Positions 22,924 through 34,179 of a stretch of DNA of 64,000 nucleotides are shown here, one piece after another. The position numbers and the translations under genes are program-made. The notes beneath the pieces were generated by a model. The model had not been told where the DNA came from, made no database searches, and saw only the letters and a program-made list of their open reading frames with translations. Position 1 is the first letter of the stretch, and the number at the start of each line of letters is the position of its first letter. The DNA lies in assembly GCA_027405735.1 (NCBI GenBank), contig JAPEHQ010000010.1:806001-870000 (forward strand). The letters run 5' to 3'. The stretch comes from Mucor racemosus. Its lineage: Eukaryota; Mucoromycota; Mucoromycetes; Mucorales; Mucoraceae.

Positions 22924-24092
22924 TTAGTTCATGACAACAGCTCTGTAACGAGGCTTGGCTTGACGAACGAATTCGAAAGCTTCATTAATCTTCTCCATAG
23001 GGAAGGTGTTGACCCAAGTACGGATATTGTGCTGAGCAGCGAAATCGAGACATTCTTGGATAACAGAAGGAGAACCGATGAAAGAACCAGCAATAGTAAG
23101 TTGCTTACCGGCCATGACGAAAGCAGACATACCAGAAAGAGGAACTTCAGGAATATCACATAAGATGAAGATACCGTTGTTCTTCAACATCTTGAAGTAT
23201 TGATCCCAACACTTGTTGACAATCTTGGTGGCAAGAATGTGAGTGAAAGTATTGTAGTGAGGTTCCATTTGTTCTTCCTTTTGCATGAGGACGTAGTCAT
23301 CACAACCGAGCTTCTTGGCATCTTCAACCTTATCAGGGATAACATCGAAAGCAACGACTTCAGCACCCATTGCCTTGGCCCATTGGACACCGAAATGACC
23401 GAGACCACCGAGACCGAGAACGGCAACCTTGGAACCCTTACCAACATTGTAACGCTTGAGGGGAGCAAAGGTAGTTACACCACCACAGAGGAAAGAAGCA
23501 GCAACTTCAGGAGAGAAATCCATAGGGACATGAACAACGAAATCTTGGTTACCTCTCCACTTTTTGGCGAAACCACCATAAGTCTTATCCTTGGTAGCAT
23601 TGTCATAACGATCGTTGAAGGTCCAGACAGCATGAGTGGAACACAAGTTTTCCATACCCTTCTTACAGTAATCACACTTACCGCAAGAAGCAGATTGACA
23701 ACCAACACCACAACGATCGCCAACCTTGATACGTTGAACGTTCTTACCAACCTTGGTAACATTACCAATGATTTCGTGACCTTAAAATAAAAGTATGCAT
23801 GAGCAAATAATGTTCAAATGCTGCAAAATGTTTAATATACATACCGACAACACAAGGGAATTCAGTAGGTCCCCAACCTTCATCAACGGTGTGCTATATA
23901 AAAATGTTAATAAAACTATTCAAAATCGATCAATTGACTAAAATGACTTACAAGATCAGTACCACAGACACCACAACAGATGATATCCATTTGGACCATA
24001 TCTTCATCCCAGTGACAGAAAGTCATCTCCATAGGTTCAAGAGGAGCAGACTTGGATTTACAGGCCCAGGCAGTGAAAGTTTCTTCAGACAT
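22924..24092 (-). CDS. Zinc-dependent alcohol dehydrogenase, cinnamyl/ADH6 type
   Basis: Medium-chain dehydrogenase that interconverts alcohols and aldehydes. Three exons: 23952-24092, 23845-23893, 22924-23780; 348 residues. Catalytic zinc ligands are Cys43 (CGVCGTD) and His65-Glu66 (GHE); the structural zinc site has Cys96, Cys99, Cys102 and Cys110. The Rossmann motif GLGGLG is at about 186-191. These features match the NADP-dependent cinnamyl alcohol dehydrogenase family; substrate is not predictable. The codon choice is strikingly richer in third-position C and G (AAG, GCC, ACC, GTC) than in neighbours, a usual sign of high expression in fungi. A 3' tail overlaps no other gene and faces SIN3 convergently. 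Confidence 0.9.
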
Positions 24093-26842: not shown

Positions 26843-26851
26843 AATAGTGCC

Positions 26852-26945
26852 CGAAAACTTGAATCTTGCGAGTATAATAATTACCATATTAGTAAATGCC
26901 ATACAGCTTAGCCAATTTTTACTACAACTTACCAGATTCAAGCCT
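26852..26945 (-). ncRNA. Candidate omega-RNA scaffold at the 3' end of the Fanzor gene
   Basis: In transcript direction the stop codon region reads GCTTGAATCTGG and the transposon end reads AGATTCAAG, giving a 9-bp perfect stem (CTTGAATCT/AGATTCAAG) around a loop of about 66 bases that spans from the Fanzor stop codon to the element terminus. In known OMEGA systems the guide scaffold overlaps or follows the nuclease 3' end and runs to the transposon border. This placement is why I flag it; the RNA itself is an inference. Confidence 0.35.
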
Positions 26946-29900
26946 CCGCTGATGCAGCACCGCTGCCGTCCCCATGCTCGTTTCTTGAACAGAAAGCGTT
27001 GGTCTTGGTGAAAATACCAGTATAGGATTGACTGGGTTTAGGATTGAACACTGGTAATGATTCATTAAAAATTAAATTAGAAAGACCAGATACAGCAATA
27101 GCCAAAGCGGATGTTTTGTCTCTTGATTGAATTGGCTTGTGAGATCTGACAGAAATACATCTTGGATTAAGGCACCAGAAAGCACCATTTACTGTCTTTT
27201 TTGCTGATTTATCTTTGTTAGCTCTTTTGGGATGTGTGAGTGGACCAAAACAAAACATACAAGTTTGGGATGTCTTGTGTTCATTTGTAAAATGGATAGC
27301 AGAAGAAACAGCATGCAGTTTTGGCTTCCATTTACCTCCGTATTTTAGATGGCCTTTCAGCCTCGAGCCAACACCAGTGCCCCTATCCCCAATAAACATT
27401 ATAAGGGACGTTTGTGGACGTCTACCAACACAAAAAGATCTTTCTTTGGAGGCAGCACCGGAGCGAAATCTTTTGTCATTGCATTCAGTACTTCTTGTTA
27501 AATTAACCATTTTCTTTGAATGGTAGAATGCACGGAGCGTTTTGATATCTTCCTTACGATTAACCAATCTGCTCTGAATTTCATCAACATTCTTTGATAA
27601 ATATACACTAGATTTGGACAGTTTGGTTTCAATCATCTTTACTTGTCTGCCTTCTGTGCTTTGTTTGTCTTTTTCCATCAGCTTCCTCTTTCTGAATTGA
27701 CCAGACCCGAAATCAATATCTTCGGCATACATCTTGTACGATTCTGGAAGGGGCTGGAAAACGTCAGGTGCTGCATCAAGATCATCGTTGTAATTATCAG
27801 AAGCAAGAGGAGAGTATTTGTTATGCAGATTTAAGCAGTATTTATACTTGCTAATGTCAATAGCAACTGTTTCAGTCATAACTTTGAGACCATTGTCTGT
27901 TCCTGAGAATATCAAATCTCCAAGGGACTCTTCATTATGAATTTCTTCAGTCCTTGCAATACTTGGTATATTCTTATTGCGATGCTGAATGGCTTTTCTT
28001 AAATAATATTGTTGACTCCTAAGATCAGCAAGCTGTTGCTTCGTCGCTTGTAAAGCACTAAAAGCATTGAATCTATCTGCTTTCAATTTTTGGATTTCCT
28101 GATATTTACTATGATCATTCTTCCATTGAATTTTTAAATCTTTGATTCTTGTAGAAAAATCGTCTCGCCTGAATTGTCTGCTGTGCTCTTTTAATAGTGC
28201 AGAAACATTCTGAATCTCTTGTCCTATATCAGCAATGTCAGATTTCAATTCTTGATTGCTTCTCGACTGTAAATCTTTGACAGTGTCCCAATCAATGTCG
28301 ATCAAATTTGCGTTGGTGTTTGTGCTGGTAGCTTGGTCTTTGATAGGTCTATTTCCTAAGATTCTTGCAGATTTAAGTCCAGGTGAAATTATCACATTAT
28401 GAGCAAAAGTTAATTTATATGATTTACAAGCATGATTAATAGCACGAATGTCGAAAAAAGAGTTGAATACTGCATCTTTGTAGGTACGTGCTTTAACAAC
28501 TGAATCAATGACATAACCTTGAAAGTCGAAAATGGTCATCTGATCGCCTTCATTCTTCTGACTGCATAAAGCATAAATTGATGGAGCATCTAATCGTAAA
28601 GCATTCAAAGATGCATGGGAGGATGTGGGGCACAAGTCCATTACAAATTTACTATATCCAACTGATCGAAGTACATCGTTAGCTAACAATAAGAATGGAA
28701 GTTGAAATCCAATATGGCCATAATTTTCTTTGCTTGGTATATATGGAAGCAATGTGTTTGATAACATTAAATATACTGCAGTTTCAGCAGGAGTAATATC
28801 TGGAACCTCCTCTTTAAAATGATTATCGGTAATAGTCTCATCATAATGATTAAACATAAGGTCTTTTATAACAGCTTTCAGTGTTAAAATTCGTCGTCTT
28901 GTTACATCACGATCATCTGATTCTGCTTCCTCCATTTCTTCCTCCTCCAGAACTTCATTAAATGGGATGATTTCTTCAATCGGGACAATATTATCATTGG
29001 AGGCTAACCCAAATTCTTCTTGAGGAGGTTTATCACGATCAGGGCGTCTGAAACTTTGATGCATATTGTTGATTCGCTGTTGGCTTTTTTCAGCTAATAC
29101 AAACCACTTGTTATCTTCTCCTTTACCTTGAGCCTTTCTCTGATACTTTTTCAATTTGTGCTTCTCTGATCGAATGACGTTGTGGAACGAGTTTCGAGAA
29201 GGCTTTGAAACATCATCTTTTTCATGATCTTCTTTTGACTTTGATTCAATGTAATCCTGATATTTTTTCTCGCGTTTGGGAGCAAGATGTATCCGGAGGA
29301 GGACTTCAATCACCTTATTCAATATCTTGTTGAATAACTTGTTACCAGACCACATATTCTTCAAGTTGACTTTATATATGTTCAAAGCTACCTGCATCAA
29401 TTCATTAGCAGGTCGAGGAGTTTCCTGAGAAAATGACGATATCAACGGATGATTGCTTTCGGCCAAAGCATGAAATATAGGATTTGTGCTTTTTGATCCC
29501 TTTTTTCCAAATAATGTAACATGGAGGTAGTCGATGTGTTGACTTTGGAAGAGTTGCTTCAAGTTTTTGCAGAAGAACTCAGACTTGATAGCGTCTGATG
29601 ACAATGGAGGAGCAGAAAATTTGGTGTCAGATTTCATTCGAAAGTCTGGTGGAAGGATACTTTCAATTGGGAAACCTTGGCACTTGTTATATTCTACATC
29701 TCCATTTTGAGCAACCACGAATTGCGATGATTTCATAGAGAGCATCAACGTGAAAACGACCAGTTGGATATCCATGAGATAATCAGATACATTATATAAT
29801 GCAGCATTTACTTTGCGTAGAAATGCTTCAGCAATCTGTGGATTTACATCTTTTCGTAATATGCTTTTAAATGATACTGTACAGGTACGATATTCCATGC

Positions 29901-30528
29901 TTTCTTCTTCTTTTTCAATGGAAATGTCTGAAATTTCTGTTGGAGCACCAGAGATTGAAGATACTTCAGATACTACATCCATTGCAGAGAGCTCTCGACG
30001 AAGAGAAGGGATAAGGCTAGAAGATTTAGCTTGAGATGGTTGCTGTAATGTTTTTCCTGAAGAACTTGATGGTTCTGATGAAAAAGATAATACAATGTTG
30101 TCAAAATTTTCTTTCACATAGTCTTGCCAGTGTACAAAGTTTCGCTTAAAAGTATGATGTTCAAGATAATTGCTTAATTCACCTTGATTACAGTTACATA
30201 TTTTCTCAGCATTGTTAAGGATTCCAGGAGGGAGCCTCTTTATTTCAGACATCGTTTTCTTTAATTCTATTAGCTTTTTATCTTTACCAATAATAGGTTT
30301 AACCTTATTTGTAATATCATCACGCATAGATTGATAGAAGCTATCCATCAGTCTCTGAGAAGAAACTCCAGACGTTCTTGGCCTTTTTATTATAGGAGCT
30401 GCAGTGGATGATGATGATAATGGATGTTCTCTTTTTTTTCCACTTGAAGTGTTCCATTGAGGTGGATAACTAGTTTGAGTGCCATCAAAAGCATCTCTCT
30501 GTTCTTTCTTCTTACGGATGCCGGACAT
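26938..30528 (-). CDS. Fanzor (TnpB-like RNA-guided nuclease homologue), 1196 residues
   Basis: Single uninterrupted frame, unlike the intron-rich neighbours. The C-terminal third has the TnpB/Fanzor RuvC layout: RuvC-I FSGTDNG with Asp878; IMFIGDRG at 1043-1050 where the second strand is expected; TNEHKTSQTC with Glu1083; a zinc ribbon Cys1090-Cys1093 and Cys1119-Cys1124; and RuvC-III SRDKTSALAIA with Asp1137. A probable coiled coil precedes RuvC (about 745-850, KSDIADIGQEIQNVSALLKE). The first 700 residues are lineage-specific to my eye, starting with a basic, NLS-like stretch (RKKKEQ, KKREHP). In characterised Fanzors such proteins use a guide RNA to cut DNA; activity here is inferred from intact catalytic residues. 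It lies inside a transposon with its stop 86 bases from the left end. The length is well above typical TnpB (about 400). Confidence 0.85.
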   Translation of the reverse strand: MSGIRKKKEQRDAFDGTQTSYPPQWNTSSGKKREHPLSSSSTAAPIIKRPRTSGVSSQRLMDSFYQSMRDDITNKVKPIIGKDKKLIELKKTMSEIKRLPPGILNNAEKICNCNQGELSNYLEHHTFKRNFVHWQDYVKENFDNIVLSFSSEPSSSSGKTLQQPSQAKSSSLIPSLRRELSAMDVVSEVSSISGAPTEISDISIEKEEESMEYRTCTVSFKSILRKDVNPQIAEAFLRKVNAALYNVSDYLMDIQLVVFTLMLSMKSSQFVVAQNGDVEYNKCQGFPIESILPPDFRMKSDTKFSAPPLSSDAIKSEFFCKNLKQLFQSQHIDYLHVTLFGKKGSKSTNPIFHALAESNHPLISSFSQETPRPANELMQVALNIYKVNLKNMWSGNKLFNKILNKVIEVLLRIHLAPKREKKYQDYIESKSKEDHEKDDVSKPSRNSFHNVIRSEKHKLKKYQRKAQGKGEDNKWFVLAEKSQQRINNMHQSFRRPDRDKPPQEEFGLASNDNIVPIEEIIPFNEVLEEEEMEEAESDDRDVTRRRILTLKAVIKDLMFNHYDETITDNHFKEEVPDITPAETAVYLMLSNTLLPYIPSKENYGHIGFQLPFLLLANDVLRSVGYSKFVMDLCPTSSHASLNALRLDAPSIYALCSQKNEGDQMTIFDFQGYVIDSVVKARTYKDAVFNSFFDIRAINHACKSYKLTFAHNVIISPGLKSARILGNRPIKDQATSTNTNANLIDIDWDTVKDLQSRSNQELKSDIADIGQEIQNVSALLKEHSRQFRRDDFSTRIKDLKIQWKNDHSKYQEIQKLKADRFNAFSALQATKQQLADLRSQQYYLRKAIQHRNKNIPSIARTEEIHNEESLGDLIFSGTDNGLKVMTETVAIDISKYKYCLNLHNKYSPLASDNYNDDLDAAPDVFQPLPESYKMYAEDIDFGSGQFRKRKLMEKDKQSTEGRQVKMIETKLSKSSVYLSKNVDEIQSRLVNRKEDIKTLRAFYHSKKMVNLTRSTECNDKRFRSGAASKERSFCVGRRPQTSLIMFIGDRGTGVGSRLKGHLKYGGKWKPKLHAVSSAIHFTNEHKTSQTCMFCFGPLTHPKRANKDKSAKKTVNGAFWCLNPRCISVRSHKPIQSRDKTSALAIAVSGLSNLIFNESLPVFNPKPSQSYTGIFTKTNAFCSRNEHGDGSGAASAEA

Positions 30529-31258
30529 TTAGCTTAACTTATAATTGAACAAATGTTAGTTCTCGTATGTTAAAACCGAACACTGATTGTGTCATACATA
30601 CTTGTAATACTTGTATATCCTGATTGTATATGTTTTTATTGATGTATTTGTGAAAAAGTGGTAAATAGGATTAGAAAGAGAGAGAGAGAAAAGAAAAAGA
30701 AAAGGCGTAATAAACGTTTGATATACAATACCTTTTGGGCTATACCCTGAGCTCAATTAATATATCATGAATGATTTCATATTCTATATGCCATTTTAAC
30801 AGTCAGTTGAAATACATTACATTCTGTATGCTGACTTGACGATGTATGTAGGTCAATTCAGCCTGGATTATAAAGAAGATACGTATAATACTGAATATGA
30901 ATAATGAAGAAATTCAAGCCGACTACAATACAAATTTCTTGTACTATCTCACTTTGATTATATTCTATACTGGCATTACTTCAGCATGCACAATAAATTT
31001 ATCTCAATGATCCAAACACTACAGTAGTATACTTGATTGAGCAAATTACATAAATTGAAAGTGAGTTTAAGAACAATTATCTGTGTTAAATTAAATTTAT
31101 CTATATTATAAATTTTATCAATTGAGTTAAAAATAATAATACAGTAGAACCATGTAGGAGCTATGGCATGCTAACATTGCATTGTCATATGGATTCTTCT
31201 GCAAGTTTAGTGTGTAAAATATATTATACTCGCAAGATTCAAGGCTTGCAATAGTGCC

Positions 31259-32525
31259 GTTGGCGGCATTTGAATTCCATTTTTTCCAAATGTCCCAGAT
31301 TCATCAAAAAACTCATTCTTTTAAAAAAAATTACGTTTTTCGAGATTTATTACATGTTTTTATAAGCTAGTACCTGTTAAAAATTAATTGACTATTGTAG
31401 TGTCTTTGATCCTGCATCTGATGGTGTATACAAATAATAAAAATTACACACAAAATTTCGTTATATTTCTCGAAATTCATGATTTTGTTTTTTGAGGAAA
31501 AGTCAAAAAAATTTGTTTGAAATATGAGCTTATACATTTGTAAACAAAAGAACAAGTTTTTACGGTCATTTGGTACCAGTATTTACCTTAACAAAAAGTG
31601 CCAAATTTCGGGTGAAAAAATGGATTTTGTCAAAATTGCGATTTTCCATGAGGTATACCTCATGGAAAATCAATGAGAAATGAACTACTAAGGATAAGTG
31701 TAAATATACTTCAGAAAATATCTATAAAATCAGAGAAATTGTTTGGGATGCTTCTGAGCATCATAGGATTCCTGTAACAAGAGTTATGCGCTCTTTAAAG
31801 TGTGGATTTATGCGGATTTTCATGATACAATGATCTAAAATCAACCGTATTGCGAGAAACCAACTTTTCATCATAAAAAAAAAAATATTATATGTATTCC
31901 AATACATTTTTCATCATATGGATAAAGTTCATTTTGCTTTTGAATAACAATCTATTTTAGTTAAAATCCTTTAAAAAATTATTTTTTGAGCGGAGTACTA
32001 CTCCAGGCTAGAAGACTCTACCAACTATGGGAGAGAAAATAATATACAGTAAAAATAAAAACTAGCATGGTGTAGTTGTAGTGTAAAAGGTTGTAATAGT
32101 TTATGTGGCGTAAACGTATCTTACATACATTATTTTATATTGTATTTCCCAAGGTGAGGCATTTCGAAGCGTAATACGTTTAATGGAAAATCAGATACAG
32201 GCCAAATTCTCTTGTGTAGGCGTTTTTATTAAAAAGTATCGCTTCTAACGCTAGATTTACCTCCAAAAGTTATCAGAATTGGTGAAATATCTCTTGCACA
32301 AAGAGTTAAAAATAAAGTAGATGTTTAACATTTATAAATTGTTATATCCCAAAAAACACATGTGTAGATTTTAATTAATGGTAGATATGACATTGTCTTA
32401 ATTTAATATTATTTTGATTATTATTCTATTGCGTATGATATTAGTTCAAAAGAGAGTAGAAACAAGGTGGTAAGCGTAAAGAGTATTGCGTATAGGAATC
32501 CGATAGTAAGGTAGATGCAATTTAC
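31259..32525. other. Intergenic region with a 32-bp palindrome
   Basis: AT-rich, non-coding, between the Fanzor element and the 3' end of LCB1. Apart from the palindrome at 31640-31671, I see no gene or repeat. Confidence 0.45.
31640..31671. repeat. Perfect 32-bp palindrome
   Basis: Arms GATTTTCCATGAGG and CCTCATGGAAAATC meet around TATA, which is itself palindromic, so the whole 32 bases equal their reverse complement. It could extrude as a cruciform, bind a dimeric protein, or be a remnant of a folded transposon end. Confidence 0.95.
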
Positions 32526-34179
32526 TTATTTTCTCCATTTACTAAAGACTTTAATGATAGCGGACTTGACAATGCCTGCAGCTTTCTCATTTTCTTTCTT
32601 GGTTAAACCAACAGTGACATTAATCTTAATGCTAGGTCTAGGACAATCACGTTCTTGATCAATGACATATTTTGCACGAGTAATCAAAACACCTTGATAA
32701 GCACATTCGTCCACTACGTCCTGCAACAAATATTCTTCATCATCACGGGAAACATCAATTTCGTGATCTAAAATATGAGATTGCAAGAAGGAAGGCTTGG
32801 CTCTAATATGGAAGAAAGGGGCAGGATTTTCGAGATCTGCCGAGAAAAGCTCGACAAAAGGTTCAAGAGTCTTGTGTAAAAGAGTTTGGCGAAATGTTTT
32901 GCCACGCTCAGCAAGCTCTGTTAAAGTAGCAGGTTGTTCCTTTATGATTTTGATAGCTTCACTAGCAGAAACAGCGAGCATTGCTGGAATTGAAGCAGAG
33001 AAACAATAGGCAAGGCCTGATAGACGTTGATGATCAATGATTTCTTCAGAACCAGCACAGAAACCACCTGAAGAACAGAGTGAATTGGCCATTGAACCAA
33101 CAATCATATCAATATCCACTGCTGGGATATCGAATAAATCTGTCAAACCAGCACCACGACTACCTAAAACGCCAATTGATTGTGATTCATCTAAAACCAA
33201 TCTATATTTGAACTTTTTCTTCAATTCTACTAACTTGTCTAAAGGAGCAATGTCGCCATAATTGGCAGAAAGCCCTTCAGAAACAATGAAACGACGAGTA
33301 AGACGCTTCTTATGAATGATATCGTCCATGCGAATCTCTTCTAAGACTCTCTCGAGATCAGCCATGTCATTGTGCTTGTACCAACGAACAATTGAACGAG
33401 AGATTTGAACACCCTTTTGAATAGCAAAGCTTACACTGTCATCACAAACAAGGATATCACCTCTTTTACAGAAAGCAGGAATAACAGAAGAAATGGTAGA
33501 GAAGCCTTGAGCATAAATGATGGCTTGCTCTGTTCCTAAAAATTGGGCAATATCTCGCTCAAGATCCATATGAACATCAATAGTACCATAAAAACCAGGA
33601 GGACCACAAGAACCAACACCATAATTCTTGAGTGTGGCAATTGCTTTTTCACGAATTTGTTCGGAAGCAACCAAATTGAGATAATTAGTGGTGGCTAAAT
33701 TCATTAAGGGTTTAGCGAAACCAGCAACCTTTGGCTTGATGGATTGAGCACCCATGATAATGGGTGTTTTATCCATATTAAATTTATCGTACTTTGAGAG
33801 GGAAGGTACAAGAGGTTCAGGGTGCCATTCCTCGACAAGATCATCAATTTCCTTTTTGAATACAATGAAAAATTAAATAAATATGTAACTTGGAAAACTG
33901 AATACAAACATTAATTACCTTATCTGTTAATTTGACAGCATTATCATGGGGTTTATATTTTGCAGACATCATGTATCTAATAGCAAAGAAAACTAAAAAG
34001 AGCTCAAGAGCAATACGGAAAGGGTCATGTTGATAGGCACTTTTAAGGTAATTAATAGCATGATGAGAGCCAGGAATAGCTGCAATGGCTGTATATAGTG
34101 AGTTTACAGTAGAATTAATAAATTCGGCATGCTCTTCAATTAAAGGAGGTGCAGTGCTAGTATCCATGATTAGTGGCAA
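32526..34179 (-). CDS. LCB1: Serine palmitoyltransferase subunit 1
   Basis: First step of sphingolipid synthesis in the ER: joins serine and palmitoyl-CoA, as a heterodimer with Lcb2. Two exons, 33919-34179 and 32526-33851, with a 67-base intron; 528 residues. A membrane segment lies at about 50-66 (FRIALELFLVFFAIRYMM). The alpha-oxoamine synthase fold is clear (TTNYLNL, GVGSCGPPGFYGT, RLVLDESQSIGVLG). At the place where Lcb2 carries the PLP lysine this protein has GSMANSLCSSGGF with no lysine, which identifies it as the non-catalytic Lcb1 subunit. Start ATG at 34179 gives the expected N-terminal length. Confidence 0.94.

Follow-up and report, generated by a model that had tools for sequence, protein, structure and literature searches.

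Transposase-free Fanzor1 elements with terminal inverted repeats (TIRs) and 9-bp target-site duplications (TSDs) have been described from the Mucoralean fungi Rhizopus, Phycomyces and Mucor as ROr-4, PBl-3 and MCi-4, all of the MuDr type (Bao and Jurka 2013, PMC3627910). The subject of the present work is an element alike in host group, Fanzor1 gene, TIRs, TSD length and lack of a transposase, which lies in a 64,000-nucleotide stretch of the Mucor racemosus genome (assembly GCA_027405735.1, contig JAPEHQ010000010.1, positions 806,001 to 870,000; the whole stretch is called the window). For the three published elements, neither a target motif nor a fixed orientation is reported in section 12 of PMC3627910, and the comparison with them is by description only. 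The same paper gives fuzzy or truncated 5' ends with duplications for the Fanzor1 elements MCi-2 and CRe-1, CRe-2 and CRe-3, as found here in 4 of 11 full-length copies; unlike the window element, MCi-2 has no TIRs and the CRe elements are Helitrons. The Fanzor1 of the ascovirus SfAV (PMC10711439) is likewise flanked by TIRs without a transposase, and its TIR is predicted to be part of the guide-RNA scaffold; its TTAN duplication (PMC3627910) is counted to the scaffold, whereas here the duplication varies freely. SpuFz1 (PMC10432273) has a D/E/D triad whose Glu lies 65 residues before the last Asp (E541, D606), against 54 in the window protein (E1083, D1137), and a target-adjacent motif (TAM) that adjoins the target, which is not seen here; the PDB gave no sequence match.

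The element itself is thus of a known kind, a transposase-free Mucoralean Fanzor1 with 9-bp duplications; Fanzors belong to eukaryotes and are related to the CRISPR nucleases. No target motif for Fanzor elements is reported in the literature searched (supplements and subscription papers being outside its scope), and since motif, orientation and site reuse are absent from it, the target motif, the fixed orientation, the rule common to short derivatives and the reuse of a site are called new as far as that literature goes. We consider it probable that the locus is a non-autonomous DNA transposon with a Fanzor1-type RuvC nuclease as its sole gene, a transposase acting in trans, motif-directed one-way insertion and a guide-RNA 3' end.

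An element of the cut-and-paste kind with inverted repeats should be able to insert either way round, and orientation-biased insertion at a fixed distance from a recognised sequence is a property of Tn7 and the CRISPR-associated transposons; these are bacterial and have dedicated targeting proteins, and the likeness lies in the insertion pattern, with no evidence of relatedness. The first-pass annotation, made from the sequence alone, had expected sibling copies, and the searched genome (53.2 Mb, 54 contigs) indeed holds 10 further full-length ones, at 96-97% identity. All 11 are inserted the same way round, the end at the 5' side of the open reading frame (ORF) facing a host motif from which the 8-10-bp duplication is separated by 5 bp. 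With every copy read in ORF direction, the 5' flanks align gap-free as far as the duplication. All 11 have T at -15, A at -12 and G at -6, and C at -8 and C at -7 occur in 10 each; over 15 positions of the 3' flanks a comparable pattern is not seen. The form TTYAAnnnCCG is exact in six copies (L001, L003, L004, L005, L007 and L008) and shows one or two departures in the other five, while the duplication itself has no fixed base.

A matrix built from the 11 full copies was then applied to ends outside that set. The test set comprised 86 distinct ends found at up to 4 mismatches in the collected loci, which is not every end of the genome, and the end classes were assigned from the sequence inside the element by patterns written after viewing the ends, hence not blind. 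To pass, the best of 5 placements at 11-15 nt from the edge had to beat all 97 other placements in the flank. Of the 29 other 5' ends, which belong to fragments and short derivatives, 19 passed; of the 37 3' ends, made up of 26 others and those of the 11 full copies, 1 did (Fisher p 1.8e-8; binomial p for the 5' ends 1.6e-18, chance being taken as 5 in 102). Split by their interior, 10 of the 12 Fanzor-type 5' ends and 9 of the 17 derivative-type ones passed; one of 30 unseen 5' ends had been excluded, being the damaged end of full copy L010, and 12 ends were unclassable, one of which ranked first. The 29 5' flanks are mutually dissimilar, no two being alike. Over 30 sites (the 11 plus the 19 passing, a selected set) the motif approximates TTCAAACTCCGC, all 30 having A at -12 and G at -6. 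Exact whole-genome patterns gave 11 matches at 5'-type tips against 2 at 3'-type tips, the totals of tips being uncounted and most of the 11 already counted above; of the two 3'-type matches, one lies in the 3' flank of L010 and the other at L017, an odd element. L017 (C21:501975-502965), one of the 19, is a short derivative with 3'-type tips (CGAAAA) at both ends, and its motif stands beside the end that is 5'-type inside. From the aligned flanks, the family appears to insert one way at a fixed distance from a TTYAAnnnCCG-like motif, a rule that the first-pass annotation had missed.

The rule also accounts for a case of site reuse. Read along, L007 consists of the motif, CTGAATAAC, the Fanzor element, CTGAATAAC, a short derivative and CTGAATAAC once more, so that the same nine bases were used twice, matching what the rule predicts. 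L004 and L005, whose elements are 97.6% identical, have related flanks, one alike at 69.5% over 128 nt and the opposite one at 71.8% over 646 nt, in which the motif aligns and the duplications differ; it looks as if two related sequences had each been hit at the corresponding place. In L007, L008, L010 and L011 the 5' repeat has its outer part lost or rearranged, and damage to the 3' end, the presumed place of a guide RNA, is found in 0 of 11 copies. At the damaged 5' ends an intact duplication abuts directly and the distance to the motif is unchanged. These ends may stem from an abortive cut on the 5' side that was then resected and rejoined, or else the elements may already have been shortened when they inserted. 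Such ends with intact duplications, paralleled in other published Fanzor1 types, hint at a protected 3' end.

Two derivatives of 146 and 186 bp (L067 and L071), whose likeness to the 3' end is limited to 45 nt, also follow the rule. Other non-autonomous derivatives, of about 650 bp (L065, L041, L042, L068, L069, L072 and others), have a 3' part 68-74% identical to the Fanzor element over some 280-370 nt. The retention of these 280-370 nt was considered as proof of RNA function and rejected: many of the derivatives have a common start near residue ~236 of a 327-residue query, and one founding deletion would give the same.

Regarding the protein, the frame and the cysteine ribbon named in the first-pass annotation were found, and the acidic residues stand at the places it gave (Table 1); the rest of the element is a leader of 721 nt and, behind the stop, 86 nt. 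Three protein searches, in each of which the roughly 8,000 candidates with the most words in common were scored, yielded 14 homologues (P0001-P0014) from Mucor, Apophysomyces, Mortierella and other sources, the nearest named ones being Mucor proteins. The C-terminal Fanzor1/TnpB signature D-X(125,275)-[TS][TS]xx-C4-X(5,50)-RD, published in PMC3627910 and applied with a spacing within the C4 ribbon set in this analysis, is present in the window protein and 8 of 14 homologues and in 0 of 20,000 shuffles; in the six homologues without it, the region is incomplete. Where the region is present, homologues down to 26% identity (P0008) retain the three acidic residues and four cysteines. In the catalytic half, BLASTP against P0014 gives E 3e-25 (a single comparison) and a profile comparison 99.8%, aligning GTDNGLK on GVDPGVK, TNEHKTSQTC on TSEYLTSKLC and RDKTSA on RDKNAA, and with them the whole acidic triad. 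The P0014 motifs GVDPGVK, SEYLTSKLCSIC and RDKNAA are ones that we take to be canonical. P0014 matches the PF07282 Cas12f1-like_TNB profile weakly (E 0.0086, under the curated cut-off); this profile matched 1 of 12 aligned members, weakly (E 0.53), and gave nothing for the window protein, while PDB searches with P0008, P0012 and P0014 returned nothing significant. The usual RuvC-I motif is GxDPG, and the GTDNG of the window protein is unusual. Signature and alignment to this canonical-looking relative together uphold the proposal of a Fanzor-type protein, and with good confidence we regard it as Fanzor-like and as a predicted nuclease.

The 3' end of the element is a candidate guide RNA. Its last 125 nt fold at -36.1 kcal/mol (z -2.75, 1 of 200 shuffles being as stable), against z -0.50 for the 5' end on the same strand. 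An inverted copy of the repeat core at 26927-26942 pairs with the terminal repeat, and the small hairpin and the stem are kept in the consensus fold of 21 related 3' ends; in the window, Rfam yielded 0 matches at gathering score. A guide-RNA role of this end is likely, the ascovirus Fanzor1 serving as the analogy. Just as well, the inner repeat copy may be a site for the transposase, distinguishing this end and so determining the polarity. Behind the stop codon there is also an intron-like stretch of 68 nt that follows the splice consensus; its putative acceptor lies inside the terminal repeat, and excision would leave CTTGAAT-CTG-ATTCAAG, a perfect hairpin beside the flank.

The copies of the family differ pairwise by 1.1-3.6% (identity 96.4-98.9%), with 99.0% identity in the last 86 nt, 97.8% in the ORF and 95.1% in the 5' leader. 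The frame is intact in 8 of 11 (L001, L002, L003, L004, L006, L007, L010 and L011) and broken in L005 by a frameshift, in L008 by a stop at codon 839 and in L009 by a stop at codon 1168. The pooled ratio of nonsynonymous to synonymous changes (pN/pS) is 0.328 over all 11 copies, broken ones included, and 0.37 for private changes of single copies; the Fanzor family, as a family and not as a statement on the window copy alone, is under purifying selection. The window copy carries 34 private codon changes, and L009 33 plus one stop, the highest numbers of the 11, so it is not the youngest. The recent activity previously read into the locus is only moderately supported, by the small distances among full copies.

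As had been proposed, the element holds no transposase, none being found among its frames. The idea of a Mutator-like donor fared less evenly. The duplications of Mutator-like elements (MULEs) measure 8-11 bp (PMC6446971), and those of 8-10 bp here fit this range, which is not specific. The MULE profile PF10551 has no match in the genome, with a control that gives a signal in 3 of 14 genomes, all prokaryotes, and PF03108 has none with a control silent in 14 of 14, so that these absences are weak and the Mutator assignment is unproven. The 22-nt repeat core occurs at 89 places of the genome with up to 3 mismatches, element copies included (reversed control, 0); those end pairs that lie about 4 kb apart are Fanzor copies only, and two further pairs, some 2.1 kb apart, enclose Fanzor remnants. 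A hAT donor was also tried and rejected: the genome has 70 hAT dimerisation-domain matches, but nothing links them to these ends. Many of these 70 have equal scores, from which an abundant hAT family is likely.

In the explanation we prefer, a trans-acting transposase, probably of the DDE kind, would recognise the 22-bp repeats and move the element together with its shorter relatives; it would read the motif and place the asymmetric ends in one orientation. As TnpB and Fanzor biology suggests, the 3' end would be transcribed as a structured guide RNA, with the flanking host DNA as guide, and the nuclease would recut the emptied site, so that the element would more readily be restored or spread. 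Given the fixed polarity, the target motif would lie opposite the guide side, and TnpB elements have this same layout of motif and guide. Several results weigh against such an explanation. A transposase with these ends was not found in an inspection by eye of the 89 core places for paired ends, and an autonomous partner may yet lie at one of the many single ends. The window protein has no significant match in Pfam, NCBIfam or PDB sequences, and the structure models are of low confidence, with a mean predicted local distance difference test (pLDDT) of 48.7 for the window protein (12 sequences) and 44.4 for P0014 (8 sequences). Compensatory changes in the 3' fold are few, both sides being altered in 2 of 17 pairs, and of two short-derivative folds (z -0.66 and -2.33) the first is no better than shuffles. 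Ten of the 29 other 5' ends fail the rank test; by eye, L016, L069 and L076 have a recognisable motif at a shifted distance, the ends of L007 and L059 abut other copies, and L030, L041, L043, L078 and L084 are plain misses or weak fits. No base is conserved in the four positions adjoining the duplication or in its first 8, so an ordinary TAM is not visible.

That the element is simply a MULE derivative with an acquired Fanzor gene and ordinary targeting is a possible but doubtful alternative: the length of the duplications and the MuDr assignment of the published Mucoralean relatives (PMC3627910) speak for it, yet the target rule is not part of it and the genome gave no MULE match, itself weak as an absence. 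A Fanzor that has decayed or been repurposed, carried as a passenger without nuclease activity, would agree with the GTDNG in place of the usual GxDPG, with the failure of every profile library tried to recognise the protein and with the three broken copies; the triad and cysteines kept in distant homologues and the low pooled pN/pS make it unlikely.

Two further alternatives move the choice of site away from the transposase, and both seem to us quite improbable. Polarity and motif could arise after insertion, by an unspecific transposase and the keeping or copying back of only those insertions rightly oriented at a motif usable by Fanzor; the polarity suits the needs of a TnpB-type nuclease and many short derivatives retain the 3' region, but the derivatives L067 and L071 obey the rule as well, the motif stands 5 bp off the duplication rather than adjacent to it, and a site reused to the base looks like targeting. 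A host DNA-binding factor, such as an RNA polymerase III factor at a B-box-like sequence, could instead tether the transposase, as TTCRAnnnCC resembles the tRNA B-box; against this, the equivalents of G53 and C61 are not conserved in the motif, the genome holds the motif no more often than its reversed control (614 against 706) and tRNA genes number 0 in 12 sources, namely the window and 11 copy loci with flanks of about 1.5 kb, searched with bacterial settings. Targeting of tRNA genes was rejected on that last count and a host repeat as target on the lack of enrichment, TTTAAACTCCGA giving 43 against 50. It is highly improbable, finally, that the Fanzor ribonucleoprotein itself helps to choose the insertion site, in which case this would be a eukaryotic transposon directed to its sites one way and with the help of RNA. 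The idea starts from the likeness between ATTCAAG, which derives from the TIR and lies at the 3' end of the RNA, and TTCAA in the target motif; L067 and L071, without the RNA region, would need service in trans. Returning to the explanation with a motif-reading transposase, a one-way, fixed-distance family that appears to carry an RNA-guided-nuclease gene would make testable how target choice by a transposase and recognition by Fanzor are reconciled, suggests that a eukaryotic transposase directed by sequence awaits discovery, and offers several intact Fanzor frames from one genome.

Table 1. Features of the Fanzor element and its flanks (positions in the window)
Feature	Position	Strand	Basis
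Whole element, 4398 bp	26852..31249	- (ORF orientation)	11 full-length copies with perfect direct repeats
Target duplication AATAGTGCC, ORF-3' side	26843..26851	.	read in sequence, copy comparison
Target duplication AATAGTGCC, ORF-5' side	31250..31258	.	read in sequence, copy comparison
TIR, ORF-3' end (CGAAAA + 22-nt core)	26852..26879	+	repeat search
TIR, ORF-5' end (GCAAGC + 22-nt core)	31222..31249	-	repeat search
Fanzor-like ORF, 1196 aa, ATG to stop	26938..30528	-	frame list, homologues, signature
Asp878 codon (RuvC-I, GTDNG)	27895..27897	-	homologue and copy alignments
Glu1083 codon (TNEHKTSQTC)	27280..27282	-	homologue and copy alignments
Four-cysteine ribbon C1090, C1093, C1119, C1124 (CxxC ... 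CxxxxC)	27157..27261	-	signature search
Asp1137 codon (RD, RuvC-III)	27118..27120	-	copy and homologue alignments, signature search
Candidate guide-RNA scaffold: small hairpin over last codons, 15-bp stem closing on element end	26852..26976	-	fold computation
Intron-like stretch after stop codon, 68 nt (GTAAGT ... TACTAAT ... CGCAAG), unproven	26865..26932	-	sequence
Target motif TTCAAATGCCG in host DNA, 5 bp outside ORF-5' duplication	31264..31274	-	flank alignment, matrix test

The borders of the element are clean, as annotated before: the 9-bp duplication is perfect on both sides, every one of the 11 full-length copies is enclosed by a perfect direct repeat of at least 8 bp, and the 3' border falls on the identical base in 10 of 10 other copies. 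The 5' border is common to 6 of 10 (L006 with 2 extra nt), and departs in the remaining four by damage only. The announced inverted repeats with 22 identical bases were found too (26858-26879 and 31222-31243, 100% identical); with up to 3 mismatches allowed, the core matches the window at 2 places, the mean for shuffles being 0.00. The outermost six bases of each end, CGAAAA and GCAAGC, agree in 2 of 6, so the two ends are not symmetric.

The neighbourhood had been called degenerate, a description at odds with the nearest frames of at least 220 aa, at 22924-23655 and 32526-33776, which are presumably alcohol-dehydrogenase-like and aminotransferase-like. A final point concerns further Fanzor genes. 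The genome, searched with the C-terminal 327 residues, gave 122 matching stretches among 162 candidates scored; in 21 of them the open frame measures 299 aa and in 13 it measures 286 aa (identity 36-39%), which indicates at least one further large Fanzor family, richer in members than that of the window element. In a member of this second family read in part (L085 1-1200, C9:1547200-1549200), the C-terminal frame is apparently split from the N-terminal one by a short intron, and GGTAAGT follows the stop codon, as in the window element.

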